Source: Myxococcaceae bacterium
GTDB lineage: Bacteria; Myxococcota; Myxococcia; Myxococcales; Myxococcaceae
NCBI GenBank assembly: GCA_016926755.1
Contig: JAFGNZ010000069.1
Span: 1-54,418 of the forward strand
Length of the DNA stretch: 54,418 nt
Reading direction: 5' to 3'
This document shows positions 8,596-47,302 of this stretch, piece after piece; positions within the stretch are counted from its first letter, which is position 1, and each line of letters opens with the position of its first letter. The notes beneath the pieces are model-generated. The model was not told where the DNA came from, did no database searches, and was given only the letters and a program-made list of their open reading frames with translations. The translations under genes and the position numbers were made by a program.

Positions 8596-8638
8596 CTCGC
8601 GCTCCTGCAGGAGGACGGGTGCACCGCCGGGGCGGGCC

Positions 8639-11734: not shown

Positions 11735-11767
11735 CTGTGCGTGACGGCCCGTGTGCGCCCTGGGGGC

Positions 11768-14700
11768 TCAACCTCGGCGGTTGCGCCGCTCCCTGCGCCG
11801 CTCCCCGCGGCTCTGGCTGGCCTCGTATGTCTGCGGCTCCGAGGGCCCCTCGCCCAGGAGCTTCGCCAGCGCTGCCACGGTGGGGGCCTCGAAGACGGAG
11901 GTGAGGGGCACCTCCCTGCGCAGCTCCTTCTTCAGCCGGCCCACCACCTTGAGCCACAGGAGCGAGTTGCCCCCCAGATCGAAGAAGTTGTCGTGGATGC
12001 CGAGCTGCTCCAGGCCCAGCGCCTCCTGCCACGCCTGGGCAAGGGTGCGCTCCAGCTCCGTATCGGGTGGCACGTACTCGGTGCCCAGCGCCGGGCGGGC
12101 GTGCATTGCGGGCGTGCTGCCGGTTGACCCGCCGGCCCCCCCCGCCTCGCGACGCACCCACTGCGCCAGCCGTGGCTCCAGGGGGCCGGTGGAGATGACC
12201 ACCTGCCCGGTGAGCGGCGACTCCACCACGCGACGGAAGGCCTCGGGGGCCTCGGAGGCGCTCATGGCGAACTGATCCATGCTCGTCTGCAGCGCTCCGC
12301 CCTGGGCCTCGGCCACGGGCCACCCGTCCCAGTTGGTGCTCAGCCACCCGAGCCGCTCGTCTCGCGCGCGGCTGGAGGCGAAGCTGTCCAGGTAGGTGTT
12401 GGCGGCGGCGTAGGCGGTGAGCCCCAGGCCGCCGAGCACCGAGGCGTTGGAGGAGAGCAGCAGGCAGAAGTCCAGCGAGTGGCCCTGCAGCACGCGCTCG
12501 AGCACCTGCACGCCGAGCACCTTCGCCTGGAAGTGCTGGGCGTAGGTGTCCGGGGTGAGGCTGGAGAGCAGCGCCAGGGCCCGCTCGCCCGCGAGACCCG
12601 CCGCGTGGATGACACCGTGGAGGGCGCCGAAGCGGGCCTGCACCTCGACGAGCAGCTCGCGCATGCGGGCCTCGTCCGCCACATCCGCGCAGGCCACCAG
12701 CACCTCGGCGCCCGCGGCCTCCATCTCCAGCACGGCCTGTACCCGGCGCCGCGTGGAGTCCCCCTCCCCCATGGCCAGCCACTGGGGCCACTGCTCGCGA
12801 GGAGGCAGGGGGCTGCGCCCCACCAGCACCAGGCGGGCCTGGTGCGTGCGCGCCAGGTACCCGGCCAACAGCAGCCCCACGCCGCCCAGACCGCCGGTGA
12901 CGAGATACACGCCCTGGTGCCGCAGCGGACGGCTCGCGGGCAGCTCCGCCTCCAGCCGCAGCGGCTCATAGGCCTGCACGTAGCGGTGCGGCCCACGCCA
13001 GGCCACCACCGGCTCCGAGCCCCCGTGGCTCAGCTCACGCCAGAGCTGCTGGGCCCCGCGCGCTCCCGCCTCTCCCAGGTCCACGTAGCGGCAGCCCACC
13101 TGCTCCAGCTCCTGGGCAATAACCTTGCAGGCCGCCAGCACGAGGGCCCTCTCCGGCACGGCCCTGTCCATGCTCTCCACCTCGAGCGCTCCCTGGCCGG
13201 CCACCCACAGCTCCACCCTCCCCTGCCGCTGCACCTCCGCGAGCGCCTGGGCCAGCAGCACCACGCCGTGCAGGCCCCACTCTCGCGCCCGCTCCAGCCG
13301 CTCGGGGCCGGACTCGGGCAGCGCCTCCAGGCTCCACAGGTGGGCGATACGATCCACCTTGAGCCCTCGCGCCTCGAGGCCGCCGAGCAGCGCCACATAG
13401 TCCTCATGCTGGCCGGGGTGCACGGTGTAGCGCCCCTCCGTCTCCTGGCCGAAGTGCGTACCCGGCAGCACGCCCAGCACCTGGTGCCCCTGCCCCGCCA
13501 GCCGCTCGCACAGGGCCGCGCCCACGCCCACACTGTCCAGGAAGACCAGCCAGGTATTCTTGCTGTCCTCTTCCCTCCTGGGCTGCAGGGGCAGCGAGGA
13601 TCGCTGCCATGAGGGCTGGTAGAACCACCCCGCCACGTCCGGGCTCTTCTTCGCGTGGGTGCGGCGGCGAGCCGAGGGCGCCTCGGGGGCGAGCCAGTAC
13701 TCCTGGCCCTCGAAGGCGTAGGTTGGCAGTGGCACGCGGCGGCGCTGCTCGGCGGGGTGCACCAGGGCCCAGTCGATGGGGAGGCCCACCAGCCACAGCC
13801 GGCCGAGCGTGGCGTGCAGGTGCTCGCCGTCGTCCACCTTGTCCAGCGGGTGGCGCATGGAGGCGAGCACCGCGGGGGCCTGGGGGCCCGTGAGCTGCAG
13901 CCGGGCCAGGGTGCTCAGCGTGCGGCCCGGCCCCACCTCCAGCAGCACGCGCTCGGGCTGCTCGCACAAGCTGCGCAGGCCCTCGCCAAAGCGCACCGTC
14001 TGCCGCAGGTGCCGCGCCCAGTAGGCGGGATCCTTCGCCTCGACGGGGGTGAGCCAGGCGCCTGTCACATTGGACACCACCGGCAGCGTGGGCTCGTGCA
14101 GCGCGAGCGTGGAGACGAAGGCCTGGAAGCGCCCGAGCAGGGGCTCCACCAGGTGCGAGTGCGCCGCCACGTCGATCTGGAGCTGGCGGAACTCCACCTC
14201 GCGGCGCGTCAGCTCGGCGGCGAGCGCCTCGATGGCCTGGTGGGAACCGGCCACCACGCACTGCGAGGGCCCGTTCACCGCGGCCAGCGACAGCTCGGGG
14301 GTGAGCAGCGCCTGCACCTGCTCCTCGGGCAGGGGGAGGCTGAGCATGGCCCCCCCGGGCAGCTCCTCGAAGAGCTGGCCGCGCCGCACCACCAGCGCCA
14401 GCGCATCCTCCAGGGAGAAGACACCGGCCAGGCACGCCGCCGTGTACTCGCCGAGGCTGTGGCCGATGAGGGCCTCGGGCCTCACCCCCCAGGACTCCCA
14501 GAGCCGAGCCATGGCGTACTCGGTGGTGAAGAGCGCCGGCAGGGCCACGGAGGTGCGCTTCATCCGCTGGGTGGCCTCGGCCTGGCGCTCGGGCTCCGGG
14601 TACATGACGGGGCGCAAGTCGTAGCCCAGGCGCGGGCGCAGCAGCTCGCAGCAGCGGTCCACCGCCTCGCGGAAGGCGGGCTCGGACTGGTACAGGCTCC

Positions 14701-16360
14701 GCCCCATGTCCACGTGCTGGGCGCCCCCTCCGGCGAAGAGGAAGGCCACCGAGGGGGAGCGGCTGCTGGCCGCCGAGGTGAAGAGGCGCTGGGGCTCGCG
14801 CTCCCGGAGCACCCGCAGCGCCTCCTCCCGGTCCTTGCAGAGCACGGCGCGGCGGTGCTCCAGGGGCTTGCGCCCTACCTGCAGCGTCCACGCCACGTCC
14901 GCCAGGGGCTGCTCCGGGTGGCGCTCGAGGTGGGCGAGCAGCTCGGCCGTCTGCGCCTCCAGCGCGCCAGGAGTCCTGGCGGAGAGCGGCAGGAGCTGCC
15001 AGGGGCGTCCGGCGCCCGAGGGGCGCGGGGGCGGAGCCTCCTCGAGGATGAGGTGGACGTTGGTGCCGCCGATGCCGAAGGAGCTCACTCCGGCGCGCCG
15101 GGGGTGAGGCCCCTCGGGCCAGGGCTTGAGCGAGGCGTTGACGTAGAAGGGGCTGTTCTGGAAGTCGATGCGCGGGTTGGGTTCCTCGAAGTGCAGGCTG
15201 GGGGGCAGCTCGCGGTGCTCGAGCGCCAACACCGTCTTGAGCAGGCCCGCCACGCCCGCCGCGGCATCCAGGTGGCCGATGTTCGTCTTCACCGAGCCCA
15301 GGCCGCAGAAGCCCTTGCCCTCGGCGCCCCCCGCACGGAAGGCCTGGGTGAGGGCCTCCACCTCTACCGGATCTCCCAGCTGCGTGCCGGTGCCGTGGGC
15401 CTCCACGTAGGAGATGCTGTCGGGCGTCACCTCGGCCACGGCCTGGGCGCGAGCAATCACCTCGGCCTGGCCCTCCACGCCGGGGGCGGTGTAGCCCACC
15501 TTGACGGAGCCGTCGTTATTGATGGCCGAGCCTTTGATGACGGCATGAATGGTGTCGCCGTCGGCGATGGCATCCTCCAGGCGCTTGAGGATGACGACGC
15601 CCACGCCGCTGCCGAAGAGGGTGCCCTGGGCACGGGCGTCGAAGGCGCGGCAGTGCCCATCCGGCGAGTTGATGCCACCCTCCTGGTAGAAGTAGCCGGT
15701 GCGCTGGGGCACGTGCACGGACACGCCGCCCGCGAGCGCCATGTCGCACTGGTAGCCCAGCAACGCCTGGCAGGCCAGGTGCGTGGCCACCAGCGAGGTG
15801 GAGCACCCCGTCTGCACGGTGATGGCTGGGCCCTTGAGATCCAGGTGGTAGGCCACGCGCGTGGCGAGGAAGTCCTTGTCGTTGCCCACCATGACCGGGA
15901 AGGTGTCCTCGGCCTCGACGAGGTCCGGGCGCGTGGTGAGGTTGAAGAGCAGGTAGGTGCTCAGGCTGGAGCCAGCGAACACGCCCGTGGCGCCAGTGTG
16001 CCGCGAGGGCGGGTAGCCCGCGTGCTCGAGCGCCTTCCACGCGCACTCGAGGAAGAGCCGGTGCTGCGGATCCATCAGCTCGGCCTCGCGGGGGGAGTAG
16101 CCGAAGAAGGGTGCGTCGAAGCGGCCCACGCGCTCGAGCACCGGGGCCGCCTTGACAAAGTGGGGCTGGTGCAGCGCGGCGCTGTCCACCCCGCGTGCCT
16201 TGAGCTCCTCCTCGGAGAAGAAGGTGATGGACTCCACCCCACCCCGGAGGTTGCGCCAGAAGGCCTCCACGTCCTCGGCGCCGGGCAGGCGCGCGGCCAT
16301 GCCGATGATGGCGATGCAGAGGCCCTCGCCGCTGCCCGTCAGCTCTTGCTCGTCACTCAT
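11768..16360 (-). CDS. Type I PKS module, KS-AT-KR-ACP
   Basis: 1530-residue PKS, probably the first polyketide extension after the FAAL-NRPS subunit; only 9 bp separate the two genes. The KS (about 15-435) has Cys186 (QTGCSTSL), His322 (EAHGTGT) and His363 (NIGHLDAAAG). The AT (about 537-830) has Ser635 in GHSLGEY. Its specificity segment reads VAAHSHLVEP (731-740), neither the malonyl HAFH nor the usual methylmalonyl YASH form, so the extender is uncertain. The KR (about 1150-1390) carries TGGLGGVG, the SSNAS serine (1303/1304), Tyr1317 and Asn1321 and looks active. The ACP Ser is 1466 in an unusual LGGNSLLWLK. The C-terminal tail is Arg-rich (RGERRRERRNRRG), a likely docking element. Extending a glycyl thioester and reducing it would give a 4-amino-3-hydroxybutyrate-type unit (inference). 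Confidence 0.95.
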   Translation of the reverse strand: MSDEQELTGSGEGLCIAIIGMAARLPGAEDVEAFWRNLRGGVESITFFSEEELKARGVDSAALHQPHFVKAAPVLERVGRFDAPFFGYSPREAELMDPQHRLFLECAWKALEHAGYPPSRHTGATGVFAGSSLSTYLLFNLTTRPDLVEAEDTFPVMVGNDKDFLATRVAYHLDLKGPAITVQTGCSTSLVATHLACQALLGYQCDMALAGGVSVHVPQRTGYFYQEGGINSPDGHCRAFDARAQGTLFGSGVGVVILKRLEDAIADGDTIHAVIKGSAINNDGSVKVGYTAPGVEGQAEVIARAQAVAEVTPDSISYVEAHGTGTQLGDPVEVEALTQAFRAGGAEGKGFCGLGSVKTNIGHLDAAAGVAGLLKTVLALEHRELPPSLHFEEPNPRIDFQNSPFYVNASLKPWPEGPHPRRAGVSSFGIGGTNVHLILEEAPPPRPSGAGRPWQLLPLSARTPGALEAQTAELLAHLERHPEQPLADVAWTLQVGRKPLEHRRAVLCKDREEALRVLREREPQRLFTSAASSRSPSVAFLFAGGGAQHVDMGRSLYQSEPAFREAVDRCCELLRPRLGYDLRPVMYPEPERQAEATQRMKRTSVALPALFTTEYAMARLWESWGVRPEALIGHSLGEYTAACLAGVFSLEDALALVVRRGQLFEELPGGAMLSLPLPEEQVQALLTPELSLAAVNGPSQCVVAGSHQAIEALAAELTRREVEFRQLQIDVAAHSHLVEPLLGRFQAFVSTLALHEPTLPVVSNVTGAWLTPVEAKDPAYWARHLRQTVRFGEGLRSLCEQPERVLLEVGPGRTLSTLARLQLTGPQAPAVLASMRHPLDKVDDGEHLHATLGRLWLVGLPIDWALVHPAEQRRRVPLPTYAFEGQEYWLAPEAPSARRRTHAKKSPDVAGWFYQPSWQRSSLPLQPRREEDSKNTWLVFLDSVGVGAALCERLAGQGHQVLGVLPGTHFGQETEGRYTVHPGQHEDYVALLGGLEARGLKVDRIAHLWSLEALPESGPERLERAREWGLHGVVLLAQALAEVQRQGRVELWVAGQGALEVESMDRAVPERALVLAACKVIAQELEQVGCRYVDLGEAGARGAQQLWRELSHGGSEPVVAWRGPHRYVQAYEPLRLEAELPASRPLRHQGVYLVTGGLGGVGLLLAGYLARTHQARLVLVGRSPLPPREQWPQWLAMGEGDSTRRRVQAVLEMEAAGAEVLVACADVADEARMRELLVEVQARFGALHGVIHAAGLAGERALALLSSLTPDTYAQHFQAKVLGVQVLERVLQGHSLDFCLLLSSNASVLGGLGLTAYAAANTYLDSFASSRARDERLGWLSTNWDGWPVAEAQGGALQTSMDQFAMSASEAPEAFRRVVESPLTGQVVISTGPLEPRLAQWVRREAGGAGGSTGSTPAMHARPALGTEYVPPDTELERTLAQAWQEALGLEQLGIHDNFFDLGGNSLLWLKVVGRLKKELRREVPLTSVFEAPTVAALAKLLGEGPSEPQTYEASQSRGERRRERRNRRG

Positions 16361-16369
16361 GGTGCTCTC

Positions 16370-22786
<6,417 letters not shown>

Positions 22787-31750: not shown

Positions 31751-32824
31751 CTACTGGCCTGGGGCTGGAGCGGCGGCGCTCTTGTGGCTCTCGTACGAGC
31801 GGTTGCGCAGCAGCGGCGCTCCCGGGCTCATGCCCTCGCGCTGTAGCGTGCAGCGGTCCCCCTGCCCCAGCTCCACCGCCGCGCCCGCGCGGAAGCGCCC
31901 CGGGCACTCCTTGACGATCGTCTCCAGCGCCCGCCCATCCCGGGTGCGAGACAGGCACGTGGCCCCGTCCGGCGCCCAGGCCGCCTCGAAGGAGGCGCGG
32001 GAGAGATCCCAGTCCGCGGAGGACTCCGTCGTCGCGGCGAGCAGCCCCAGCCTGTCATACATGTCGATGATCGTGCCCTCGTGGGTGTGGCTCTGGCCGT
32101 TGCCGCAGTAGTCCGCGCGGGCCATGCGCGTGCAGGCCTGGTGCAGCTCCACCAGCGACTGCCCCTCCCGGCTGGCCCAGGGCTTGTAGCCCCAGCGGAT
32201 GCACTTGGTGATGACGCCGTTCTCGCACGCCAGGGTGAACTTGCCCGGCGCCTCCTGGCGAGCCCCGCTGGCATCCCACACTCCCCCCACCGCCAGCGCC
32301 CGCGGGTCAGGCACGGCGCCGGAGGCTTCGCACGGGTTCTCCCACTGCTGGGCCACCGGGTTCCAGGCCTCGATGCGGTACCAGGCCATGCTGGGATCCT
32401 CGGGCGCGGGCTCCGCGCCGCAGAAGGCCACCTCCACGGGCTTGCCCTCACTGGAGGTGCCTTGGAGCACGGTGCCCACCGGGCCGGTGGAGGCCTCGGG
32501 AGAGGCCTCCAGGCGCCCGTCCACCAGCCTCAGGGCCTTCACTGCGGCATCGGACTTGCGCAACGCGTTGAGGTCCACGGAGACGATCACGCTGCGGCGC
32601 TCATCGCGCCCCTGCTGCGGGCCCCAGGCGCCCTTCATTCCCCACAGCATCGTCCCCTGGGGCTTGCCACTGCGATCAGGAGCCCGGCTCTGGCAGCGGC
32701 GCGCGTACCGCTCGGCCTCGGACAGAGGGGCGGGGGTGCCCGTGGAGGAAGGTCCGGCTGCCAGCGCCGGCACGGCAAACAGCAGACACACAGCTGCGAG
32801 CAGGGACTTGTTCATCACGTTCAT
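31751..32824 (-). CDS. Secreted ADYC-domain protein
   Basis: 357-residue exported protein. A Sec signal peptide (MNVMNKSLLAAVCLLFAVPALAAG, cleavage near Ala-Leu-Ala-Ala) opens it. The middle holds the motif RADYCGNGQSHTHEG (about residues 236-250), which matches the ADYC domain found mainly in myxobacterial secreted proteins. Paired cysteines (about 44, 133, 164, 199, 208, 230, 240, 291, 310, 330) suggest disulfides, as expected outside the cytoplasm. The ATG was chosen because GAGG lies about 10 nt upstream; the Met four codons in has none. No biochemical role is established for this family as far as I know. It lies 150 bp after the kinase-STAND-SUMF1 gene and 51 bp before the TPR-CHAT gene, so co-expression is likely. 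Confidence 0.8.
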   Translation of the reverse strand: MNVMNKSLLAAVCLLFAVPALAAGPSSTGTPAPLSEAERYARRCQSRAPDRSGKPQGTMLWGMKGAWGPQQGRDERRSVIVSVDLNALRKSDAAVKALRLVDGRLEASPEASTGPVGTVLQGTSSEGKPVEVAFCGAEPAPEDPSMAWYRIEAWNPVAQQWENPCEASGAVPDPRALAVGGVWDASGARQEAPGKFTLACENGVITKCIRWGYKPWASREGQSLVELHQACTRMARADYCGNGQSHTHEGTIIDMYDRLGLLAATTESSADWDLSRASFEAAWAPDGATCLSRTRDGRALETIVKECPGRFRAGAAVELGQGDRCTLQREGMSPGAPLLRNRSYESHKSAAAPAPGQ

Positions 32825-32974: not shown

Positions 32975-35900
32975 CTACCGGGGAGAGAATGAGGCGCACA
33001 CGCGCACGCCAGTCGTCGCGTCACGCAGGGAGGGATCGCCTGGCGTGCGGTTGGCGGCATGCGCGACGGCATCGTCGTAGTACCAGGCCCCCCCTCGCAG
33101 GGCGATGCGCCCGATGTCGGGGGTCGCGGGCCGGGTCATCTCGAACGCGTTGCCCGCCATGTCGATGAGGCCGAAGGGGCTCGTGGACGCAGGGTAGGAG
33201 CCGATCACGTCGGGCCCGAAAGCACTGGACTGCCGATCATACGTCGTGTCGATGTTGGCATCCTCTGGCAGCAGCCGGTCTCCATGCGGGTACGCGCGGC
33301 CGTCGGCACCGCGGGCGGCGCGCTCCCACTCATCCTCTCTGCACAGGCGCGCTCCAGGCAGGCGCCCCGAGCGGTTCAGCCAGAAGAAGTAGCCCGCGAG
33401 ATCCTCGGCGGAGACGCCGGACAGGGGAAACCGGCGCCAGTCCGCGGTGTTGCGCTGGGTCCGGCCGGGGTAGTGAAGCGGCTCTCCCTGCCGCGCCGTG
33501 AGGATGCCGTCGAGCGAGCGGTGGAAGGAGAAGACCCAGCCAGTGCCGGGCTGGTGCCTCAGCGAGATCCCCCCGAAGGTGCCCATGCTCGCCTGCTCGA
33601 GGAGGCGTCTGGCCGCTGCGTCCGGGGGCAGGGAGTCAAGGTAGGCGATCCAGTCGCCGAACGTCACCTCTGACTTCCCGATCAGGTACCCCTCGTTGAG
33701 ACAGTACCGGTGGAGCGGCGGGCTGCGCATGAACCGCCGCATCTGCTCTGGATCGGCGCTGCCCAGCAGGAAGCAGCCGGGAGCGATGTAGACATAGCCC
33801 TCGGGCACCTCGGCCGGGAGCACGAGGCGGACCCGCTCGCGCTCGCCATGCCTGAGCAGCAGGGGCAGGTCCACCTGTGCGCGATCAGGCCGGGTGATGT
33901 GGAGGAGGTAGGAGCCCTCGGGCAGCCGCACGCCGGTGAGGGGGGTCGGGCCGAGCTCCTGGACAGGCTGGCGGTGCAGCACGCCTTGGGCGTCAGGCAC
34001 GTAGCGCTCGATCTGGACCCTGGCGCCGGAGGGATCCGTCACGAGCTCGAGCTCGGCCGGCGCCAGCAGCCGCTGCCGCCACTCGCCGCTGTCCTCCGCG
34101 GTGTCGATCAGCTGCTCCAGGCGCTGCCTCAGCTCAGCCCGCGCGTGCTGTTGGTGGAAGTGCTCGGCCAGCTGCATGCGCTCGTAGGTGAGCCCGGTGA
34201 GGAGCCGCCGCGCCTCCCCATGGCCTTGCTCACGCTCCAGCGTCCTCTCCAGGGACTGGCCTGCGCGGGCGTAGGCCGCATCCGCCTGCGCGAGCAGGCC
34301 GAGCGCTTCCGCCCAGCGCCGCTCGGCCGCTTTCCAGGGATCGTGGGCGCCGGGTGAGGCCCCAGGGGTGGAGGACGGAGGCGCCCGGCCGTCAAACAGC
34401 GCCAGCGCCTCCTCACGCCGTGCGCGGGCCTCCTCTCCCAGGGAGTGGCCCTCGGCGGCCGCCTGCCTCGCGGCTCCCAGCGCGGCGGCGACGAAGCGCT
34501 TGTCCTCGAGGTACGCCTGCAGGCGCAGCCCCCCATAGACGGCGGCGATGGCGAACACCCCGAGGAGCGTGGCCAGGTACCGGCCCCACCGCTGGAGCCT
34601 CAGGGCGCGGCGCGAGGCGAAGAGGAAGGCATGCTCACGGGGGCCCAGGGTGGTGAGATCCAGCGGGCGCGTCTCGTCCAGCTGCCGCTGCCCCCACAGG
34701 GCCTCCTTGGCGTGGGCCAGGCGCTCCCACTCGGCGCTCGCCGCCTCCACGCGCTGCCGCACCGCGCGGTGGCCAATGTCGTTGTCGAGCCAGTTGCGCA
34801 GCGTGCCCCAGTGCGTGATGAGCGAGTCATGGGCGATGCCGTACCACGCCTGGCCGCCCGCGGTGCGCGCGTGGAGAAGCCGGCCATCGATGAGCGCGCG
34901 AAGGGCGGTGCGGGAGGTGGCCTCCGAGGCCGCGGCGAGCTCCTCCTCGCTGTGCTCGCTGCGCGTGCCCTCGGCCGTCACCAGCTGGAGCAGGAGCCGC
35001 CGCGCCGCCTGCTGCCCGGCGGGACTCAGCCCCGCGAGCACCCCGTCCGCGTGCCGCGACAGCGCTCCGGCCACGCCGCCCATCGCGTCCAGCGCCGCCC
35101 GGGTGATGCGGCCCTCCGCCGGGTTGCGCCGCTCCCACAGCTCGGCGAGCGCGAACTGGAGCAGGGGCAGGCTGCCCGCGCCGTGCGCCGTGGATGCCAC
35201 CAGCGCCTGGATCAGCTCCTCGGACTCGAAGACCACGCCGCGGCTGCGCGCCGGGCCGGTGATGGCCTCGCGCACTCCCTCGGGGGACATGGGCCGGAGG
35301 ATGAAGAGCGCGCGCTCGGCCTCGTCTCCCAGGCCGGGCAACGCGCACACGCGCGTGAGGAAGTCGCCGCGCACCGCCAGGAGTATGCGCACGCCCTCCG
35401 AGGGGAGGGCGAGCTCACCCAGCAGGGCAGCGAAGCCCGCGGCCTGGGCGGGCTCGGCGACGGTGATGAGCTCCTCCAACTGATCGATGAAGAGGAGCAG
35501 GCCGCGCCGCCCCTGGAAGGCCTCACGCAGCCCCTGCCCCACCGAGGCCGGCATGTCCGCGAGCGCGGCGACGAGCTCCGGCTCCTTCTGGCCCAGCAGG
35601 GGCGCGAGCGCGGCGGCCAGGGACTCTAGCGGCCGCGAGCCAGGACAGAGGGTGACCGTGGAGAGCTCACGGCCCGCCTCCAGGGCGCTGGCGGCCATCC
35701 GAGGCAGCACACCGGCCCTGCACAATGAGGACTTGCCAACGCCGGAGTCGCCCGCGACGAGCACCAGGGACTGGCGGCGCAGGCGCTCGAGCACGGCGCG
35801 GATGTCCACGTCGCGGCCGAAGAAGAGGGCGCGGTGCTCGGCCTCGAAGGGTTCCAGGCCCCGGTAGGGGTTGCCGGCGGCGAGCTGCGCGGAGGCGTGG

Positions 35901-37006
35901 ACCTGCTCCAGGCGCTCCAGGGCCTCGCAGAGGAGCTCGGCCGAGGCAAAGCGCTCGGCCGGATCGGGCGCGAGGCAGCGCCTGATGATCGCGGCGAAGT
36001 CTGGATCCATGCCTGGCTTGAACGCGAGCAGGGGCGCGCTCTCCGAGGCTGAGACGCTCGTGGCGGCCCCCAGGGCCATCCCGGAGGGCAGCACCTTCGG
36101 GGACGAGCGGGGGGGCAGGCTGCCCGTGCACAGCTCATAGAGGGTCAGCCCGAGCGAGTACAGGTCGCTCCGCGGAGCCGCCGGCGCGCCGCGGAGGAGC
36201 TCGGGCGCCATGTAGCGCGGGGTGCCCGCGAGCGGGGACCCACCAGAGGCCTGCGAGGAGACGCCCAGATCGAAGCGCTCGGCCAGGCCGAAGTCCAGCA
36301 GCTTCACCTCGCCGCCCTCGGTGACGAGGGCGTTCGAGGGCTTGATGTCCCGGTGGAGCACGCCCTGGCGATGGGCCGCAGCGAGCCCCCGAGCGAGGCC
36401 GCAGCCGAGCGTGAGGGCCCGCCGCCAGGGCAGGGGCAAGGGGAGCTCCGCGAGGCTTCGGCCGGCCACGTACTCAGAGACGATGTAGGGGTGTCCGCCG
36501 GCAGTGCCGACGCGGAACACGGTGACGACGTTGGGATGCTGCAGGCGAGCGATGGCGCGCGCCTCCGTCTCGAAGTACGCGCGGACCAGGGGCCCGGGCT
36601 GTTCCGAGGCGATGAACTTCACCGCCACGGGGCGGCCCAGGGAGGTGTCCTGCGCCAGGTAGACGACGCCCATGCCGCCGTGGCCGAGCATGCGCTCCAG
36701 GCGGAACTCGTCGAACTCGGTGGGAGGCGTCCACGGGGAGACGGGCTCTGACTTCGCGGCCGCGGGCCCGGGGGAGCCTGGCTTGCCAGGTCCCGGCATG
36801 GTCCGGGTCCTGTCCTTCGGGGCAATCTCCCCGTCGCGCGCAAAACGTGCCAGGAGGCCGCGGCAGGCGTCGCACTCCGTGGCGTGGAGTTGGGCGCGTG
36901 CCAGGGCATCCGAAGGCAGCCTCCCATCGGCCAACTCCACCAGATCCTCGTCGGACAGGCAGCCGGGTGCACCGGGCCCAGCCTCATTTGACTTTCGCGG
37001 ATACAT
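32975..37006 (-). CDS. Ser/Thr kinase - STAND NTPase - membrane segment - PEGA - SUMF1-like fusion
   Basis: 1343-residue membrane-spanning signalling protein. Residues 41-48 (HATECDAC, H-x3-C-x2-C) form an anti-sigma-like zinc-binding motif. The Hanks-type kinase (about 100-365) has GHGGMG, Lys130, HRDIKPSN (218-225) and DFG (238-240). A STAND-type NTPase follows, starting NPYRGLEPFEAE near 379, with Walker A AGDSGVGKSS (418-427) and a Walker-B-like LLLFIDQLEEL. One hydrophobic helix (YLATLLGVFAIAAVYGGL) probably crosses the membrane. After a charged helical region comes a PEGA-like segment (DPSGARVQIERY...LPEGSYLLHITRP) and a C-terminal SUMF1/formylglycine-enzyme-like domain ending GVRVCASFS. 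The SUMF1-like part would sit outside, the kinase inside, making this a plausible sensor. It heads the signalling block; 150 bp separate it from the ADYC gene. Confidence 0.93.
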   Translation of the reverse strand: MYPRKSNEAGPGAPGCLSDEDLVELADGRLPSDALARAQLHATECDACRGLLARFARDGEIAPKDRTRTMPGPGKPGSPGPAAAKSEPVSPWTPPTEFDEFRLERMLGHGGMGVVYLAQDTSLGRPVAVKFIASEQPGPLVRAYFETEARAIARLQHPNVVTVFRVGTAGGHPYIVSEYVAGRSLAELPLPLPWRRALTLGCGLARGLAAAHRQGVLHRDIKPSNALVTEGGEVKLLDFGLAERFDLGVSSQASGGSPLAGTPRYMAPELLRGAPAAPRSDLYSLGLTLYELCTGSLPPRSSPKVLPSGMALGAATSVSASESAPLLAFKPGMDPDFAAIIRRCLAPDPAERFASAELLCEALERLEQVHASAQLAAGNPYRGLEPFEAEHRALFFGRDVDIRAVLERLRRQSLVLVAGDSGVGKSSLCRAGVLPRMAASALEAGRELSTVTLCPGSRPLESLAAALAPLLGQKEPELVAALADMPASVGQGLREAFQGRRGLLLFIDQLEELITVAEPAQAAGFAALLGELALPSEGVRILLAVRGDFLTRVCALPGLGDEAERALFILRPMSPEGVREAITGPARSRGVVFESEELIQALVASTAHGAGSLPLLQFALAELWERRNPAEGRITRAALDAMGGVAGALSRHADGVLAGLSPAGQQAARRLLLQLVTAEGTRSEHSEEELAAASEATSRTALRALIDGRLLHARTAGGQAWYGIAHDSLITHWGTLRNWLDNDIGHRAVRQRVEAASAEWERLAHAKEALWGQRQLDETRPLDLTTLGPREHAFLFASRRALRLQRWGRYLATLLGVFAIAAVYGGLRLQAYLEDKRFVAAALGAARQAAAEGHSLGEEARARREEALALFDGRAPPSSTPGASPGAHDPWKAAERRWAEALGLLAQADAAYARAGQSLERTLEREQGHGEARRLLTGLTYERMQLAEHFHQQHARAELRQRLEQLIDTAEDSGEWRQRLLAPAELELVTDPSGARVQIERYVPDAQGVLHRQPVQELGPTPLTGVRLPEGSYLLHITRPDRAQVDLPLLLRHGERERVRLVLPAEVPEGYVYIAPGCFLLGSADPEQMRRFMRSPPLHRYCLNEGYLIGKSEVTFGDWIAYLDSLPPDAAARRLLEQASMGTFGGISLRHQPGTGWVFSFHRSLDGILTARQGEPLHYPGRTQRNTADWRRFPLSGVSAEDLAGYFFWLNRSGRLPGARLCREDEWERAARGADGRAYPHGDRLLPEDANIDTTYDRQSSAFGPDVIGSYPASTSPFGLIDMAGNAFEMTRPATPDIGRIALRGGAWYYDDAVAHAANRTPGDPSLRDATTGVRVCASFSPR

Positions 37007-37207: not shown

Positions 37208-40200
37208 TCACGCGCCAGGGCTCAGGGAGAGGACCGAGGGCACGCGGGCGGGGGAGGCCAGCCGCAGCAGGCCCATGCCAATCCCGGAGAGCCCTACCAA
37301 CAACCCGGGCGTCTCGCTGAACTTCGGCAGCCCGCACCGCCAACCGCTCTCGCGCCCCTGACGGATGGCCTCCGCCGCGTGCTCCAGCGCGGCGCCCGTC
37401 CAGCGCGGCTCTCCGAGCACCTCGCCCGCGAGGTGCAGCACCTCGATGTTGCCCACGTCCCCGTGGCACAGGCAGTGGCTCCCACCGAAGCCCTCCAGGA
37501 GCGTGCGCTCCAGGCCCGTGGTGATCTCCGCGCGGGTCTCCGCATCATCCAGGTGTCGCAACGAGAGCAGCCGCCCGAGCGCGATGCCCGGCGCCCCATT
37601 GCACCATGTGGTGGGGAAGGACTCTGGAGCGACGGTGGGGGTGTCTCCAGCCGTCCGCAGATCCAGCCAGTTGCCGTGCTCCGCGTCGAACAGTGCTCGC
37701 CCGTAACGCACGCCGCGCAGCGCCATGTCCCTGTACCGCGCCTCGCCCGTGGCCGAGGCCAGCTCCAGCAGCGCCCAGGCGACACCCGCCGCGCCGTGCG
37801 AGAGCCCCGCCAGTGGCTTCTTCGTCGTCGCCGGGCTCCACCACCCCGCCGTGCCGTCCGGGAAGGACATGGCCGTGGCCAGCAGGCGATCTCCGCAATG
37901 CCTCGCGGCCTCCAGGAATCGAGCATCCCCTGTCTGCCCATACAGCCCGAGCAAGACGATGGCGCAGCCCGCGGCGCCGCTCAGCAGATCGTTGCTCGTA
38001 TCGGTGCTGATCCCTGTCTCCAGCGAGGGCAGCCCCGCAAGCACCTCGCCCATCAGGGCCGGCTCGTTCCACAGCGCGGACAGATGGCCGAGCACATAGG
38101 CGTGGGACGCGCGTCCGGTGAAAGGCCCGATCGAAAGATGGCCCCGCGCGCCAGCCTCGCGCCACTGCTGGAGGATCGGCCCCAGCGTCGAGCGCGCCAG
38201 CGCCTCGAAGTCGCTGCGCCCGGTCTCCGCGGCGAGGTAGCCGAAGAAGAGCGCCAGCCCTCCCAGTCCCTCGTACAAGCCCTCGTTCAGCGGCGCCAGC
38301 GTCCAGCGCATGCCCTCGAGGCTGTCGAGCTTCATCCCGATCCAGCACACGTCCGTCCGGCCGTGGATGGCTTCGGCCTGGAGGTACTCTCCCACGGAGA
38401 TCGCGGCGGCCAGGCAGTCCTCGGGCGTGGCGGGCCGAGGCGCCTCGCGGTGGGGGAACGGCCGGGTGATCCACGCGGGGAGCCGCTCCGTACCGAGCGA
38501 GGCCATCGAGCGCCGGAGCAGGGAGACCTGCCTGTCACGCTCGCGCGTGTCCATCCGCTCGAGGCGCTCCAGGGACTCACCCAGGCTGTCCCGGGCGAAG
38601 AAGTCCGGGATGCACTCGCCCCTGCTGCTCCAGAGGTGGCGCTGGCCAGGGCGGGCCGTGAAGAGGGGGATGTCCCCCACGTTGAGGTCCTCCTTCTCGG
38701 GAGGGAGGACGCGCTGGAGCTCGGGGAGCCGCGCCGCCTCCGTCGAGAGGTGATCCAGCAGTGCGCTCCGTGCTTGCTCGTCCTGCAGGAAGTCGGGGTG
38801 GTGGGACTCCAGGAGGAGCGTGCTGTAGCGCCTCGTCGGCCGGACGATGTGCCGGACCTCCACATCGGCGAAGCGGCGGAGCTGGGACGCGACCTCCGCC
38901 TGCTGACGCATCAGGAGCTCGTAGGTCTCCTGGAAGCCCTGGACGATGTCCTCGGTGAAGTCAGCGGGGCGCACCGGGGCGCCCGCGACGCTCGGGCGGT
39001 TGTGGGCCCCCTGGGTCCGAACCTGCCGGCGGACGACCTTCATCGTGTCCTGCCCCGAGTCCGCGATCTGGGAGATGAGCAGCGGGTAGAGCTGCCCCGC
39101 CTCGCCGCCGAGGCCACTCAGATCGACCCCGGGCTGACCCGTGTCGTTCAGGATGAACTTCGGCAGGAGCCCCACGCCCAGGACCGATCCGGCGAGTTGA
39201 TCCGCGGCGCGTGCCTGGGCGCTGTCATCGGCCAGCGGAGCCCGGGAGTGGAAGAGCGCCTCCAGGTCCACGAGGACCGGGTGCTCCCCGGAGGCGATCA
39301 GGTTCTCGTAGTGGAAGTCGGTGGCCTGAAGCAGGTGCAGCAACGCCAGCAGGCTCCCCTGGCGCCAGTAGAAGCGGCTGACAGCCTCGTGAGAGTCGCA
39401 GGGCGCCGGTTCCACGAACTCGACCCAGCCGTAGCCCTCGCGCTCGAGAACCGTGAGCTCCCGATGGGGGTGACGGAGCCCCGCGGAGTTCATCGACCGG
39501 AGGAACTCCTGGAACTGGACGTCGATCTTCAGCGAGCGAGGCTTGTAGACGAGTCCCAGGCCCGAGCTGAACCGGAGCTGAACGACGCCGCGGCCCCTCC
39601 GATGCAGATCCGACAGGCCCGTCTTGATGGTGGGCAACGGCCCCGGCTCCTGGTTGGGGGAGAAGGTCCGGCGGAGCATGGGAAGATCCGCCGCCAGCCG
39701 TGCCAGCAGCTCCAGTGAGGAGTCGGCCCAGTGGACCACACTGGTGGCCATCAGCCGCGCGAGCACCGGGTACTCCTCCAGGGTGCGGCGCAACCTCCCC
39801 GGAGCCTGGAACCAGGTCGTCGTGAACGAGCGGAAGCGCTCCTGGGGCGTGGCTCCCGGGAGCTGGCTGAGCATCCGCGCCACGTGGAGCTCCAGCACCA
39901 GCGTGCGCGTGGCCTGGACCTGGAGCTGGTGCGCCAGCGCGTGGATCAGCGCGGCCTCGGCCCCGCTGTCGAGCTGGATGTTCTCCTCGGGATGATGTTG
40001 GCGCAACGCCGAGATTCCGGCACGCAGGCGGGCGGCTCCAACCCGGAGGAAGGGTTGGAGGAACCCGGTGAACAGGGGGGGAGCGTCATCCCCCAGGGAG
40101 GCCAGGCGTTCCGGGAGCGCGGGGAGCGGCTCGTCCACGAACTCGCGCGAGGAGACCTGCTCGAGCACCGCGCTCCAGGCCCCAGGGGGCAGGTGCGCGT

Positions 40201-40276
40201 CGGCGCCAGCACCTGACGCCCTGCGCGGCGGTGGGATCGTTGCGTCAAAAGATTCCACGAGCGTGTGTTCCGACAT
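37208..40276 (-). CDS. lanM: Class II lanthipeptide synthetase (LanM)
   Basis: 1022-residue bifunctional enzyme that phosphorylates and dehydrates Ser/Thr in a precursor peptide, then adds Cys thiols to form (methyl)lanthionine rings. The N-terminal dehydratase domain (about 150-600) shows KPRSLKIDVQFQ, TDFHYENLIASGEHPVLVDLEALFH and the typical long linker. The C-terminal LanC-like cyclase (about 660-1015) has the zinc ligands Cys892 (WCNGAPG), Cys937 and His938 (CLCHGDVG). Length is normal for LanM. The ATG has GGGGAG about 10 nt upstream. It follows its precursor gene by 122 bp, with a stem-loop between. No LanT, immunity or regulator gene is adjacent. Family certain; the link to the upstream precursor is by position and by that peptide's leader type. 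Confidence 0.96.
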   Translation of the reverse strand: MSEHTLVESFDATIPPPRRASGAGADAHLPPGAWSAVLEQVSSREFVDEPLPALPERLASLGDDAPPLFTGFLQPFLRVGAARLRAGISALRQHHPEENIQLDSGAEAALIHALAHQLQVQATRTLVLELHVARMLSQLPGATPQERFRSFTTTWFQAPGRLRRTLEEYPVLARLMATSVVHWADSSLELLARLAADLPMLRRTFSPNQEPGPLPTIKTGLSDLHRRGRGVVQLRFSSGLGLVYKPRSLKIDVQFQEFLRSMNSAGLRHPHRELTVLEREGYGWVEFVEPAPCDSHEAVSRFYWRQGSLLALLHLLQATDFHYENLIASGEHPVLVDLEALFHSRAPLADDSAQARAADQLAGSVLGVGLLPKFILNDTGQPGVDLSGLGGEAGQLYPLLISQIADSGQDTMKVVRRQVRTQGAHNRPSVAGAPVRPADFTEDIVQGFQETYELLMRQQAEVASQLRRFADVEVRHIVRPTRRYSTLLLESHHPDFLQDEQARSALLDHLSTEAARLPELQRVLPPEKEDLNVGDIPLFTARPGQRHLWSSRGECIPDFFARDSLGESLERLERMDTRERDRQVSLLRRSMASLGTERLPAWITRPFPHREAPRPATPEDCLAAAISVGEYLQAEAIHGRTDVCWIGMKLDSLEGMRWTLAPLNEGLYEGLGGLALFFGYLAAETGRSDFEALARSTLGPILQQWREAGARGHLSIGPFTGRASHAYVLGHLSALWNEPALMGEVLAGLPSLETGISTDTSNDLLSGAAGCAIVLLGLYGQTGDARFLEAARHCGDRLLATAMSFPDGTAGWWSPATTKKPLAGLSHGAAGVAWALLELASATGEARYRDMALRGVRYGRALFDAEHGNWLDLRTAGDTPTVAPESFPTTWCNGAPGIALGRLLSLRHLDDAETRAEITTGLERTLLEGFGGSHCLCHGDVGNIEVLHLAGEVLGEPRWTGAALEHAAEAIRQGRESGWRCGLPKFSETPGLLVGLSGIGMGLLRLASPARVPSVLSLSPGA

Positions 40277-40310
40277 GCGGGGCTCCCCTCGGTCTTGGAT
40301 GAAAATGCAA

Positions 40311-40347
40311 GGCTCTCCGCTCGCCAGAAGGAGACGAGCGGAGAGCC
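40311..40347 (-). terminator. Perfect 13-bp stem-loop between precursor and LanM genes
   Basis: Arms 40311-40323 and 40335-40347 are exact reverse complements (13 bp) with an 11-nt loop. On the minus strand the stem is followed by TTGCATTTTC. Its place between a precursor gene and its modifying enzyme is typical of partial terminators that keep precursor mRNA more abundant than enzyme mRNA. It could also stabilise the 3' end of the precursor message. Confidence 0.65.
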
Positions 40348-40398
40348 CTGCTCGCGCGACGGATGGGTACGGTTACCCCGTCAGGCGTGGTTCAGGGA

Positions 40399-40611
40399 TC
40401 AGCAGCACTGGTTGCAGCAGCACGAGGTGTGCGGATCGCTCGGGGCAAGGCCGCCCGTCACCGCGTCCAGCTCGCCCTCATCGAGCTCGGTCATGGCCTT
40501 GCCAGAGGGGCTCTCCGGAAGCCCGGCCCGCTGCTCCTCGCTGAGGCTCGCCCGATAGGCTGGGCTCTTCCACGCGCGGATGATCATCTCCTGGGTCAAC
40601 GTATTGCTCAT
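40399..40611 (-). CDS. lanA: Class II lanthipeptide precursor peptide (mersacidin/lichenicidin-type leader)
   Basis: 70-residue precursor. The ATG has GGAGA about 10 nt upstream, and the frame before it is not conserved-looking. The leader (1-54) contains IIRAWKSPAYRASLSEEQRAGLP, the pattern of mersacidin/lichenicidin-type leaders. It ends ELDEGELDAVTGG, a double-glycine site after an acidic helix. The predicted core is LAPSDPHTSCCCNQCC: 16 residues with three dehydratable residues (Ser4, Thr8, Ser9) and five Cys (10, 11, 12, 15, 16). At most three thioether rings can form, so at least two Cys stay free, form a disulfide or bind metal. The LanM gene follows at 122 bp. The call rests on leader type, double-Gly site, core composition and adjacency. 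Confidence 0.88.
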   Translation of the reverse strand: MSNTLTQEMIIRAWKSPAYRASLSEEQRAGLPESPSGKAMTELDEGELDAVTGGLAPSDPHTSCCCNQCC

Positions 40612-40825
40612 CGTGTTGTCTCCATGTTGGGGGTCATGGGAACAGAGTGAGCCTGTGCCGGAGTGTGATGTGCCTGGCGCGGAAGCAAGGGCACGCGGTG
40701 CGAACGTCCCCACATTCCCGTGGCAGGCCCTCTGCCTGCCCTCGTAGGCCTCGAACCACACGAGCAACCAGGGGCTCCACAGGTAGGCTGGGCGGGGCTG
40801 CTGCGCCATGGAGGGGTTCCCCCTC

Positions 40826-43950: not shown

Positions 43951-44790
43951 TCAGTACAGGTGGTAGCGGAACGGCAGCTCCAGGAGAAAGGGATTGCCAA
44001 GCTCCGGAGGGGGTGGAGGAAACGGCTCGGCGTTGCGCACGGTCTCCTGCGCGGCGTCGCACAGCACCGGATGCGGGCAGCGGCCGAGCAGCTCCAGCTT
44101 CAACAGCCGGCCCTGGGAGCTGATGGACACGCGCAGCACCACCTGCCCCGCGATGCCCGCCGCGGCCGCCTGGTGCGGATAGCGCACGTGCATGAACCGG
44201 CCACGGATGAGCGTCTCCATGTAGCGCTTCACCCACGCCTCCCGCTCCTCGGGCGTGAGGGGCGGCGGCGCCGGAGCGCCGCTGGCGAGCACTCCGCGCA
44301 TGAGGCCGCCCACCACTTCGCCCACGGCGGCCCCCGCCACGCTGTCCAGCGCGACGCCCGAGGGGACGGCCCCGCCCGCGGCTTCGGAGGCGTCGCGAGG
44401 GGCCGAGGGCGCGTCGTCGACCTCGGGGATGTCCTCGGAGGGTGTGGGCGATTCGGGCGCTCGCGTCGGCTGCGGCGCGGGCTTCAGGCGTGGAGGCACC
44501 TCGCGGGCGACCACTCTCCGGGTGACGGATGGTGCGGGTGCGCCCGCCGCGGACGAAAGGGGGGGCCGGGCCGCCAGGAGCTTGAGGATGGGCGCGTCGT
44601 CATCCCCTGCCCGGGCGGGCAAGCGAGCGGTCTCCCGCCGGGCCGGCGCAAGGACCACGACGGCGAGGATGTGCAGGGCGAGGATGACCGGCACCACCCG
44701 TAGGAGTCGCGCGCGGCGCTCGGCCTGGTGTGCGTGGGCGTTGAGGACGAAGGCGAACAACCCGGCCTTCCCGCCAGCCCCCTGACGCAT
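43951..44790 (-). CDS. TonB-like energy transducer protein
   Basis: 279-residue protein with a short cytoplasmic N-terminus, one membrane helix (about 29-49, LLRVVPVILALHILAVVVLAP), a long Pro/Ala-rich periplasmic spacer and a C-terminal TonB-like domain (about 205-279: RYPHQAAAAGIAGQVVLRVSISSQGRL, ending LELPFRYHLY). The C-terminal pair Cys-Pro-His-Pro-Val-Leu-Cys is unusual. The start MRQGAGGKAG was chosen because it gives a normal N-in membrane anchor and has a G-rich site upstream; a longer frame to 45159 runs through the direct repeat and has no such support. TonB proteins couple proton motive force to outer-membrane receptors; some myxobacterial paralogues serve other machines such as gliding. 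No ExbB/ExbD genes are nearby. Confidence 0.82.
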   Translation of the reverse strand: MRQGAGGKAGLFAFVLNAHAHQAERRARLLRVVPVILALHILAVVVLAPARRETARLPARAGDDDAPILKLLAARPPLSSAAGAPAPSVTRRVVAREVPPRLKPAPQPTRAPESPTPSEDIPEVDDAPSAPRDASEAAGGAVPSGVALDSVAGAAVGEVVGGLMRGVLASGAPAPPPLTPEEREAWVKRYMETLIRGRFMHVRYPHQAAAAGIAGQVVLRVSISSQGRLLKLELLGRCPHPVLCDAAQETVRNAEPFPPPPPELGNPFLLELPFRYHLY

Positions 44791-44961
44791 GCGTCCCCCC
44801 CGTCGAGCCCAGCCCCGAGATCCTCTGCTGAGATAGGGACTCCAGAGCGACGCGCCACGCCCGAAGAGGGCCCGGCCGCGAAACATGTGCGGCGGTCCCC
44901 ACTTGCGCCTGCGGAGGTGTCGGCGAGGCTTCATTGTGGGGCCGCTCGCAGCGGTGGTGCT

Positions 44962-45017
44962 CAGCCCCAGGTTCTCCGCGCCCCGGCCTCGCGCGCGCCT
45001 GAGCGCGCCCCTCCACC
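44962..45017 (-). repeat. Direct repeat copy B (56 bp, in the spacer 44791-45088)
   Basis: Nearly exact copy of 40940-40997, lacking one CG pair, in the 298-bp spacer between the TonB-like start and the stop of the CxxCH lipoprotein gene. Similarity stops sharply on both sides. In the spacer it is not part of any gene I can support; nothing else recognisable is seen there. Confidence 0.9.
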
Positions 45018-45088
45018 GAAGGAGGCAGCGCCACCGGGGACTGCCCCGGCGCGCGCCCCGCCATGCGCGCGCCGGGTGAAGCGACGAC

Positions 45089-47302
45089 TCAGTGCACGAA
45101 CTGCTGGGCCGGCCGGATGAAGTCCACAGGCTCGGACCGGACGTCCTTCGCGAACTCACGGCGGACGTCGAGGATCTTCTTCACGTGCTCGAGGTCGCGG
45201 ATCGGGCCCACCGGGAACGGCTTCTCCACCGGGCCAATCGGGTCGATGGGCACCACCTGCGCGATCTCCTTGATCCGGTCGACGATGGCCGGCCCAACGG
45301 AGATGACGTTGGTGCACTGCGTGCAGAAGGCAAGCTCGTGCAGCCGCTTCCACCGCCGCTCGAGGTCCGCGAACCGCCAGGTCGGCGGCGCGCCGAACTG
45401 CGTGTCCCCGACGCCGAACGTCAGGCCCGGGCCACCGCCCGTCAGGAAGCTGGACATGCTGACCGGGATGAACCCGGTGGTGACGTGGGTGAACAGGGTC
45501 AGCGTGTCACCGCCGTGGCAGCCGCTGCACGTGTTGAGCGAGAACTGGTGCCGCGCGCACACATCCCGGGGATCCGCGGCGTTGGCGCCGAAGGCCTCCC
45601 AGTGGGTGAACGGGTTCGGGACCAGCGAGTTGCCGCCGCGGTACGCCCCTCCCCCGAACGAGTACGGGACGGTGTGGGCGGACGAGCAGTTGGCGGGCAG
45701 CGGCCCCACCGCCGCCGGCACCGTGGCCTTGACCGGGCCCAGGACGAAGGCGTTGTTGGTGGCGTTCCCCACGAACGGGAAGGCGGTGTCATTCGGCGTC
45801 TGGGCCACCGTGTGCCGGCGGAGCAGGCCGTCGGAGGGCATGTCCGTCCCCGCGGCAGGGTTCTCGTCCGTCAGCGTGAACTCGCGCAGCTCCCAGACGC
45901 CGCCCAGCGGGAGCTCGTTGGTGCGCAGCTGGTTGAGGGCGTTCTTGTTGCCCTTCGTCGGCGCCTTGCCGTGCAGCACCACGCTCTCCGTCAGCGTCTG
46001 GAGGTGGGTGAGGTAGGCGGCGTTGAAACCACCGAAGGTGTTGAGCTGCGTCCAGTCCCTCGCCCACTGCACCACGTTCGAGCAGCCGGTGATGGGCACG
46101 CCGTACTCGAAGATGGCGGTGGCCTGCTTGATGCCGCAGGTGGCCTGCGTGCCAGCGCCCCAGGGGTTCGGCTGCACGATGTTGAAGATGAAGCGCAGCT
46201 CGCCGGCGTCCACCGGGCGGCTGGTGGTGGCGCCGCCATACCCGCTGGCCCCCGTCACCGTGTCACCGAGATCGATGCGGTTGACGATCGCCGTCAGGCG
46301 GAACGGCGCGATGTTCAGGTTGAGCGGACCGCTGAGCGTGACGAACCGGTGCCCGGTGGCGTCGGTGCTCAGGGTCGCGGTGTGGCCGCTGGCGATGGCC
46401 CAGGGCTGGATCACCTGGTTGAACATCAGGAGGCGCGCCGGCACCACGTCTCCATTGATGGTCTGGGGGTTGAGCCAGTCCTCCAGCCACTTGAGGACGA
46501 ACGTCTCGGGGGTGTGGCCGGAGGTCATCGCCATCTGGCGCATCAGGTGGGCGAAGGTCCAGACGCCGCCCTGCGTCCCCGCTCCCGTGCACGGATCCCA
46601 CGTCCGCGCCGGGTCGAGGACGACCGCTGGCGAGGTGATGAACAGCGACTCACCCCAGCCCTGCATCGTGGAGACCGGCGTGGCCGGGCAGAGCGAGAGG
46701 GGCTGCGGGATGAACCGGTTGAACTGATCGAGATTGAAGGCGAGGCCCTTGCTCACCGCGACGGGCGTGCGCCCGTCGAAGATGACGTTCCGGTCGGTGA
46801 CCCGGCCCTGCTTTCCGGCGGCCAGGTCCCGCTCGTTCTGGATGCGGCGCGAGATCTCGCTGCTGTCCAGCCGGCTGAAGAGGGTGAAGAACTCGGGGCC
46901 AGGGCTCTCCGGGATCTGGCCCAGCGCCTTGAGCGCATCCGAGCGGACCAGCAGCACCGGGCTCTCGGGCTCGCCCATCACGCGCACGAGGCTCCCCTCG
47001 AGCTCCTTGTTGGTCGGCGGCGGCAGCAGCATGTGGAGCGCCACGTTCTCCTCGAGCTGCGTCACCTTCTCCAGCTGCTGGAGCGAGATCTTGGAGGCCT
47101 TCTCCGGCTCGATGTAGGGCAGCGAGTCCAGCTCCTTGGTCTCGCCTTGCGGCTCCGCGGCCTGGGCCTGCGTCTTCAAGGCGTCAGCAGCGGCGCCTGT
47201 GTCGGCGGGATCCGGTGAACAACCGGCAGCGGTGAGCAGCGTCCCTGTGAGCAACAGGGAGGAGAGAGACCAGTGGCGTGTACGGCGAGTACGTCGAACC
47301 AT
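45089..47302 (-). CDS. Large lipoprotein with one CxxCH heme-binding-type motif
   Basis: 737-residue exported lipoprotein. The N-terminus has an Arg-rich n-region, a hydrophobic stretch and a lipobox LTAAGC with Cys28 as the lipid-attachment site; GAGGAG precedes the ATG by about 9 nt. A single CSGCH (592-596, NTCSGCHGGD) matches the covalent c-heme motif, and a later pair C-T-Q-C (near 660) could be structural. No other heme motif or known catalytic domain is recognised in the body. Function unknown; a mono-heme electron-transfer or sensor role is possible but unproven. Divergent from the S9 peptidase, with a 216-bp spacer. Confidence 0.82.
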   Translation of the reverse strand: MVRRTRRTRHWSLSSLLLTGTLLTAAGCSPDPADTGAAADALKTQAQAAEPQGETKELDSLPYIEPEKASKISLQQLEKVTQLEENVALHMLLPPPTNKELEGSLVRVMGEPESPVLLVRSDALKALGQIPESPGPEFFTLFSRLDSSEISRRIQNERDLAAGKQGRVTDRNVIFDGRTPVAVSKGLAFNLDQFNRFIPQPLSLCPATPVSTMQGWGESLFITSPAVVLDPARTWDPCTGAGTQGGVWTFAHLMRQMAMTSGHTPETFVLKWLEDWLNPQTINGDVVPARLLMFNQVIQPWAIASGHTATLSTDATGHRFVTLSGPLNLNIAPFRLTAIVNRIDLGDTVTGASGYGGATTSRPVDAGELRFIFNIVQPNPWGAGTQATCGIKQATAIFEYGVPITGCSNVVQWARDWTQLNTFGGFNAAYLTHLQTLTESVVLHGKAPTKGNKNALNQLRTNELPLGGVWELREFTLTDENPAAGTDMPSDGLLRRHTVAQTPNDTAFPFVGNATNNAFVLGPVKATVPAAVGPLPANCSSAHTVPYSFGGGAYRGGNSLVPNPFTHWEAFGANAADPRDVCARHQFSLNTCSGCHGGDTLTLFTHVTTGFIPVSMSSFLTGGGPGLTFGVGDTQFGAPPTWRFADLERRWKRLHELAFCTQCTNVISVGPAIVDRIKEIAQVVPIDPIGPVEKPFPVGPIRDLEHVKKILDVRREFAKDVRSEPVDFIRPAQQFVH

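Follow-up and report, generated by a model that had tools for sequence, protein, structure and literature searches.

A predicted class II lanthipeptide precursor and synthetase pair with a cysteine-packed core peptide in a Myxococcaceae genome

The window analyzed here, by which we mean the whole 54,418-nt stretch of DNA, comes from a draft Myxococcaceae assembly of 409 contigs and carries on its minus strand a short gene, lanA, for a precursor peptide, followed by lanM, for a lanthipeptide synthetase (Table 1). Translation of lanA gives the leader MSNTLTQEMIIRAWKSPAYRASLSEEQRAGLPESPSGKAMTELDEGELDAVTGG and the core LAPSDPHTSCCCNQCC. The leader matches NCBIfam TIGR03898, the mersacidin/lichenicidin type, well above the cut-off of 23.5 bits (E 7.7e-19), no other family being above its cut-off for this precursor, and it ends in ELDAVTGG, in agreement with the class II lantibiotic leader motif given in the available part of PMC11356792. 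An earlier note on this DNA had proposed a lanthipeptide precursor whose core follows a double-Gly leader, and both proposals agree with the profile match, with the leader end and with the adjacent LanM. The core has 16 residues, with Cys at positions 10, 11, 12, 15 and 16 and Ser/Thr solely at 4, 8 and 9, every Ser/Thr thus lying upstream of every Cys; the same note had read this composition correctly, with the five Cys packed as CCC and CC. The window has 626 stop-to-stop frames of 40 codons or more, and lanA is the only one of them with at least five Cys within its last 16 residues. The putative ribosome binding site lies 8 nt ahead of the ATG. A chance open reading frame was excluded by the leader score together with the LanM, and a longer core hidden behind a frameshift was rejected, as only five codons remain until the next in-frame stop.

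Table 1. Coordinates of lanA, lanM and associated features in the window.
Feature	Position	Strand	Evidence
lanA, 70-aa class II lanthipeptide precursor, with stop codon	40399..40611	minus	translation; TIGR03898 67.4 bits
Leader peptide, residues 1-54, ending E(-8)LxxVxGG(-1)	40450..40611	minus	translation, TIGR03898; motif as in PMC11356792
Core peptide LAPSDPHTSCCCNQCC	40402..40449	minus	translation; predicted cleavage after GG (putative site)
GGAG, putative lanA ribosome binding site	40620..40623	minus	sequence; putative function
lanM, class II lanthipeptide synthetase, 1022 aa, dehydratase (DUF4135) and LanC-like cyclase	37208..40276	minus	TIGR03897 941.8 bits; PF13575, PF05147; PDB 6st5 LicM2 E 3.5e-124
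LanM motif DFHYENLIASGEHPVLVDLEAL, aligned with LicM2 DFHNENIIASGEHPILIDLETL (dehydratase)	39254..39319	minus	LicM2 alignment
LanM Cys892 (WCNG), first cyclase zinc ligand	37601..37603	minus	aligned with WCHG of LicM2
LanM Cys937-His938 (CHG), second and third zinc ligands	37463..37468	minus	aligned with LCHG of LicM2
19-pair hairpin followed by ATTTTC, terminator-like, between lanA and lanM	40307..40351	minus	terminator search; putative role

The lanM gene is the next one on the same strand and begins 122 nt past the lanA stop codon. Its product aligns over nearly its full length with LicM2, the best PDB match, and both the dehydratase and the cyclase motifs are intact; D320, H322, N325 and D337 are presumably the residues with roles in the dehydratase motif DFHYENLIASGEHPVLVDLEAL. 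The bifunctional architecture and the catalytic motifs of a class II LanM (TIGR03897, PF13575, PF05147, Cys892, Cys937 and His938) are all present. Judged by their sequences, lanA and lanM appear to be a real and intact pair of class II lanthipeptide genes whose Cys-packed core is unmatched, and the pair is probably functional. Two terminator-like sites were found in the region, against 1.1 expected, and the 119-nt stretch between the two genes has a predicted folding energy of -62 kcal/mol (z -5.54), which none of 200 shuffles reached. The hairpin after lanA suggests partial termination there, and it may possibly be an attenuator that holds lanM below lanA.

The 21 window proteins scanned also include a TonB_C protein, a PKS/NRPS set, an EmrAB-type efflux pair and signalling proteins. 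The PKS/NRPS set, of trans-AT or modular type and with one luciferase-like monooxygenase domain, occupies positions 2940-22786, and a thioesterase-ended NRPS piece lies at the contig end (49840-54393); together, these genes on either side of lanA-lanM probably make up a natural product cluster of their own. A kinase-nSTAND1-FGE fusion (32975-37006) adjoins an ADYC-domain protein (31751-32824), and in all 7 genus genomes searched both families are present in multiple copies. No transporter, protease or immunity gene was recognized beside lanA-lanM among the 21 proteins. By Pfam, the genome encodes a single C39 peptidase domain, located on another contig (C5) within a 740-aa ABC transporter that shares 77-78% identity with transporters from lanthipeptide loci of family members (e.g., L042, L044, L046, L067 and L071). 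As no transporter gene lies beside the pair, cutting and export of the lanA product in trans by this distant transporter are likely.

From this arrangement we infer expression of the pair, dehydration, ring formation, a ring pattern and processing in trans. The adjacent LanM would read the lanA leader and dehydrate up to three core residues (Ser4, Thr8 and Ser9), to which Cys thiols would then be added; the resulting 16-residue product would contain two or three small thioether rings that overlap. Of its five Cys, at least two would stay outside the rings, as free thiols, in a disulfide or bound to something, and cleavage after the GG as well as export would be carried out by the C39-peptidase ABC transporter encoded elsewhere. 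We consider it rather probable that lanA-lanM is a minimal class II lanthipeptide unit of this kind, probably expressed, that yields a modified 16-residue product processed in trans. The likeliest product would be a class II lanthipeptide in which no more than three thioether rings form and two or more Cys are spared, and the core composition supports the same limits on simple rings and spare Cys that had been proposed before. A first guess at its role, made from the class alone, would be an antagonistic or signalling peptide.

To place the core among its relatives, we compared it with those of related precursors. Of 96 family genomes searched with the precursor, 36 contain a match at E <= 0.01, and of 195 phylum genomes, 31 contain one at E <= 1e-6. 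The comparison covered 103 distinct cores from 81 loci, drawn from longer match lists such that some matches at E <= 0.01 fall outside the set; core starts were assigned from the last G[GA] close to the end of the profile, six of the cores lack Cys, and a few may thus be wrong frames. A conserved leader with a variable core is the pattern throughout the family. The earlier note had described typical cores of this type as longer, with spaced Cys, and this holds for most relatives (median length 29, n = 103), although two cores are shorter than that of lanA, three others are equal to it, and CC occurs in 22 of the 103. The same note's view that the ratio of Cys to Ser/Thr is unusual fared less well. 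Cys outnumber Ser/Thr in 21 of 103 cores, the window core included, and they do so by at least two in five, all with a ratio of 5:3 (the window core, three members of a CxPGQ..ICTPCPPxxC group and one long core). Because 21 cores share the excess and four others also have the 5:3 ratio, we regard it as a habit of the family. What is unique to the window core is instead the CCC run, present in 1 of 103 cores, and the Cys fraction, in which it ranks first of 103; only one other core has all of its Ser/Thr upstream of all of its Cys.

Searched at the codon level in the 195 phylum genomes, the pattern CCCxxCC matched in 106, and most of the matches listed end in TGG rather than a stop. The earlier note had asked for CCCxxCC cores in other genomes, and none came to light: of 21 distinct stop-ended sites read, 0 follow a double-Gly leader. 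One of these sites is a 22-residue open reading frame ending in CCCGECC and a stop (MLSTCARFLTTACGLCCCGECC and MSATCARFLTTACSPCCCGECC), conserved in two genomes of one genus, G003 and G007 (at about 3.9-4.0 kb on the minus strand of loci L165 and L166), and located 100-200 nt upstream of a conserved gene. It is no lanthipeptide precursor, but perhaps a Cys-sensing leader peptide.

Which Cys are predicted to be spared depends on the end from which a published pairing rule is applied. According to the available part of PMC11251773, Cys are paired one by one from the C-terminus, each with the closest Ser/Thr that is still free and lies at least three residues upstream, a rule that is correct for 92 of 100 known lanthipeptides and on which its authors urge caution where rings overlap. 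Applied to the window core, this C-terminal-first rule predicts the rings S9-C16, T8-C15 and S4-C12, each crossing the other two, and leaves C10 and C11 free, whereas the same rule run from the N-terminus predicts S4-C10, T8-C11 and S9-C12, with C15 and C16 free. Since the C-terminal-first rule leaves at least one Cys free in 47 of 97 Cys-containing cores, and at least two in 15 of 97, its free Cys in the window core are no proof that such Cys exist. A new ring topology in the lanA product, as the earlier note had suggested, is possible. Labionin was rejected as a crosslink, as it would require two Ser and a LanKC-type enzyme. On CCC-NQ-CC the LanM would have to select among five nearly adjacent thiols with three partners; if it does make rings there, the peptide would be a clean natural test of how ring pattern is controlled and of the fate of spare Cys.

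LanM matches at E <= 1e-30 were found in 47 of 92 family genomes, the best besides the window LanM itself having 59% identity. In a 41-row tree built by a quick method, with SH-aLRT support only and several long branches flagged, the window LanM falls within an 18-row clade with support of 100, where it has a branch to itself, 0.46 long, and the fork is drawn open. The genome's second LanM, on contig C279, clusters in this tree with the LanMs of other species, and we therefore regard the window LanM as belonging to a second, divergent lineage, for which the sample contains no orthologue. A scan of genome contigs with the window LanM gave one weak match, in Acidobacteria. None of the six other genus genomes searched has the pair, the best LanM there reaching 59%, and the core went unmatched among the matches read, which come from the 36 leader-bearing genomes of the 96 in the family; purifying selection on the core therefore cannot be demonstrated. 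The flanks of the pair, a kinase gene on one side and SGNH/MBOAT genes on the other, stand apart in other genomes of the genus, and the SGNH gene occurs in 3 of 7 genus genomes, its own included. For these two reasons, insertion of lanA-lanM could not be demonstrated.

These comparisons bear on whether the core is the object of selection at all. The leader and LanM could have been kept or acquired while the core was altered, for instance by slippage in TGC, leaving a decaying or newly drifted core without a selected product. The CCC run is coded by TGCTGCTGC and the end of the core by TGCTGCTGA, a run of TGC triplets in which slippage could occur, and both the singularity of CCC among relatives and the absence of the pair from the rest of the genus fit such drift. 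We nevertheless find it unlikely, since decay would not be expected to keep intact a leader, a ribosome binding site and, over 1022 codons, a LanM that has every catalytic motif, and the five codons past the lanA stop restore no longer, relative-like core. Alternatively, the lanA product may act jointly with, or be shared among, other precursors of the same genome, as in two-component lantibiotics. Six TIGR03898 leaders lie above the cut-off in this genome (that of the window, three next to the second LanM on contig C279, and one each on C116 and C258) against two LanMs, and several family genomes have far more precursors than LanMs. However, the window pair has a contig region and a LanM to itself, and no alpha/beta-like partner adjoins lanA, making joint action the least probable of the readings we weighed. 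Matches to precursors and LanMs number 13 and 1 in genome G003, 14 and 4 in G004, and 9 and 4 in G007, the TIGR03898-type precursors being dispersed, which looks like trans-acting LanMs with scattered substrates. The prochlorosins are made in this manner, by a trans-acting LanM with scattered substrates.

The remaining question is whether the spare Cys hold a metal, a possibility that the earlier note had raised. Under this reading the peptide would be a zinc- or copper-binding lanthipeptide, a metallophore or metal buffer in which two crossed rings close on the terminal Cys-Cys while the free Cys and His7 hold the metal. That lanthipeptides can bind copper is illustrated by noursin (PMC10206099, from the part available). 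The window itself offers a TonB_C protein encoded two genes upstream of lanA (43951-45159), but TonB_C proteins are generic, and no metal transporter family was detected by Pfam near lanA among the 21 proteins scanned. The box TGATAATNATTATCA, which we take to be the Zur-box consensus, had 0 matches in the window with up to 3 mismatches; this pattern suits AT-rich genomes and may not be that of the host. Metal binding was thus rejected as the main reading, as neither the window's own genes nor the box search gives evidence for it, and for the lanA peptide we hold it improbable.

Relatives outside the myxobacteria nonetheless make the metal reading worth testing, although for the lanA locus they are suggestive only. 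A tblastn search of 72,556 plasmids with the lanA precursor returned four records, among them a plasmid of Dolichospermum sp. DET69 (CP070234.1, 32527-44700) that carries a LanM, a C39 transporter, a lanA with the core LLAGEVHTKTCNHCCGSASAATISLA and an HlyD gene, directly followed by znuA (PF01297) and a metal ABC transporter. Of 105 comparators, the Dolichospermum stretch LLAGEVHTKTCNHCC scores best against the window core, sharing HT-[ST]C-N[QH]CC with it (score 36, shuffle p 0.007 uncorrected), but about 0.7 comparators would be expected at this level by chance, and the likeness is not significant after correction. The likeness may also be due to convergence, since the two LanMs are 38% identical and that of the window groups with myxobacterial ones. 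Matches to TGATAATNATTATCA at the Dolichospermum locus include one with one mismatch beside znuA and one with three mismatches before lanA, yet with 5 matches where 1.9 are expected, a count also reached by 9 of 200 shuffles, the excess is weak. In Trichormus variabilis (NZ_CP047243.1, 263785-275913, and locus L203), a mersacidin-leader cassette of LanM, C39 transporter, precursor (core CTTCGNPLHTPIIKCKPVFGALEDISV) and HlyD has as neighbors znuA, a metal ABC ATPase gene, hemB, thrS, hisI, CobW_C and metallophosphoesterase genes and a porin gene. Here the box is found 8 times where 1.13 would be expected, a count that 0 of 200 shuffles reached; a perfect TGATAATAATTATCA stands 34 nt ahead of lanM (382-396) and a one-mismatch copy 106 nt ahead of lanA (5868-5882). 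Such Zur-like palindromes before both genes, within a zinc-limitation-like island, make the Trichormus cassette a candidate zinc-controlled lanthipeptide. In the open-license literature we found no paper linking LanM lanthipeptides to control by zinc or Zur or to a metallophore role. Taken at its broadest, the idea would be that a family scattered over myxobacteria and heterocystous cyanobacteria makes very small metal-holding lanthipeptides, in which two crossed rings end on the C-terminal Cys-Cys and one or two free Cys bind zinc or copper together with the His in HT-x-[ST]C-N-[HQ]-CC; the cyanobacterial genes would be zinc-controlled, the peptide a ribosomal zincophore and the window core its five-Cys version. 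We regard this as a long shot. Should the spare thiols bind metal, the window peptide would be a candidate LanM-made ribosomal metallophore alongside the cyanobacterial lanthipeptides of the zinc islands.

Among myxobacteria, the cores most like that of the window in form are KQVSSCCWESC (L123), ASEQLDSCCWSSCNSAEQF (L121) and VAEDVEVSSCGWDSCN (L040), which are likewise short, with [ST/D]SC, CC and all rings near the C-terminus; they differ from it in having fewer Cys and no CCC, and the LanMs of L121 and L123, where placed, belong to another clade than the window LanM. Short precursors of the SSCCWxSC type occur at loci L189, L190, L191 and L192 together with a LanM, a C39 transporter and further conserved genes, where starts of open reading frames resemble, by eye, an oxidase and glycosyltransferases; their products are possibly tailored lanthipeptides.

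The Dolichospermum DET69 precursor shares with lanA the leader family and a resemblance of HTKTCNHCC to HTSCCCNQCC, and differs in its own transporter genes, its zinc-uptake neighbors and a C-terminal extension, GSASAATISLA. Noursin, a class III-type lanthipeptide in the available text of PMC10206099, is made by a LanKC rather than a LanM and carries labionin and histidinobutyrine crosslinks. A precedent for the product favored here, a class II lanthipeptide with spare Cys, is LanII-2B of Archangium violaceum, described in the accessible portion of PMC9576775 as a class II lanthipeptide with two rings and one free Cys; it too is myxobacterial and has not all of its Cys cyclized, but it contains three Cys as opposed to five. 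Myxococin, another myxobacterial lanthipeptide, has five overlapping bridges, as cited in the part of PMC11251773 available. With the mersacidin-type class II systems, the window pair shares the leader, the GG site and the adjacent LanM. Its core departs from mersacidin in its 16 residues, in CCCNQCC and in having no TxTxEC, the lipid II motif of mersacidin in the available part of PMC7268733, which was sought in the window core and not found there, the core containing no Glu.
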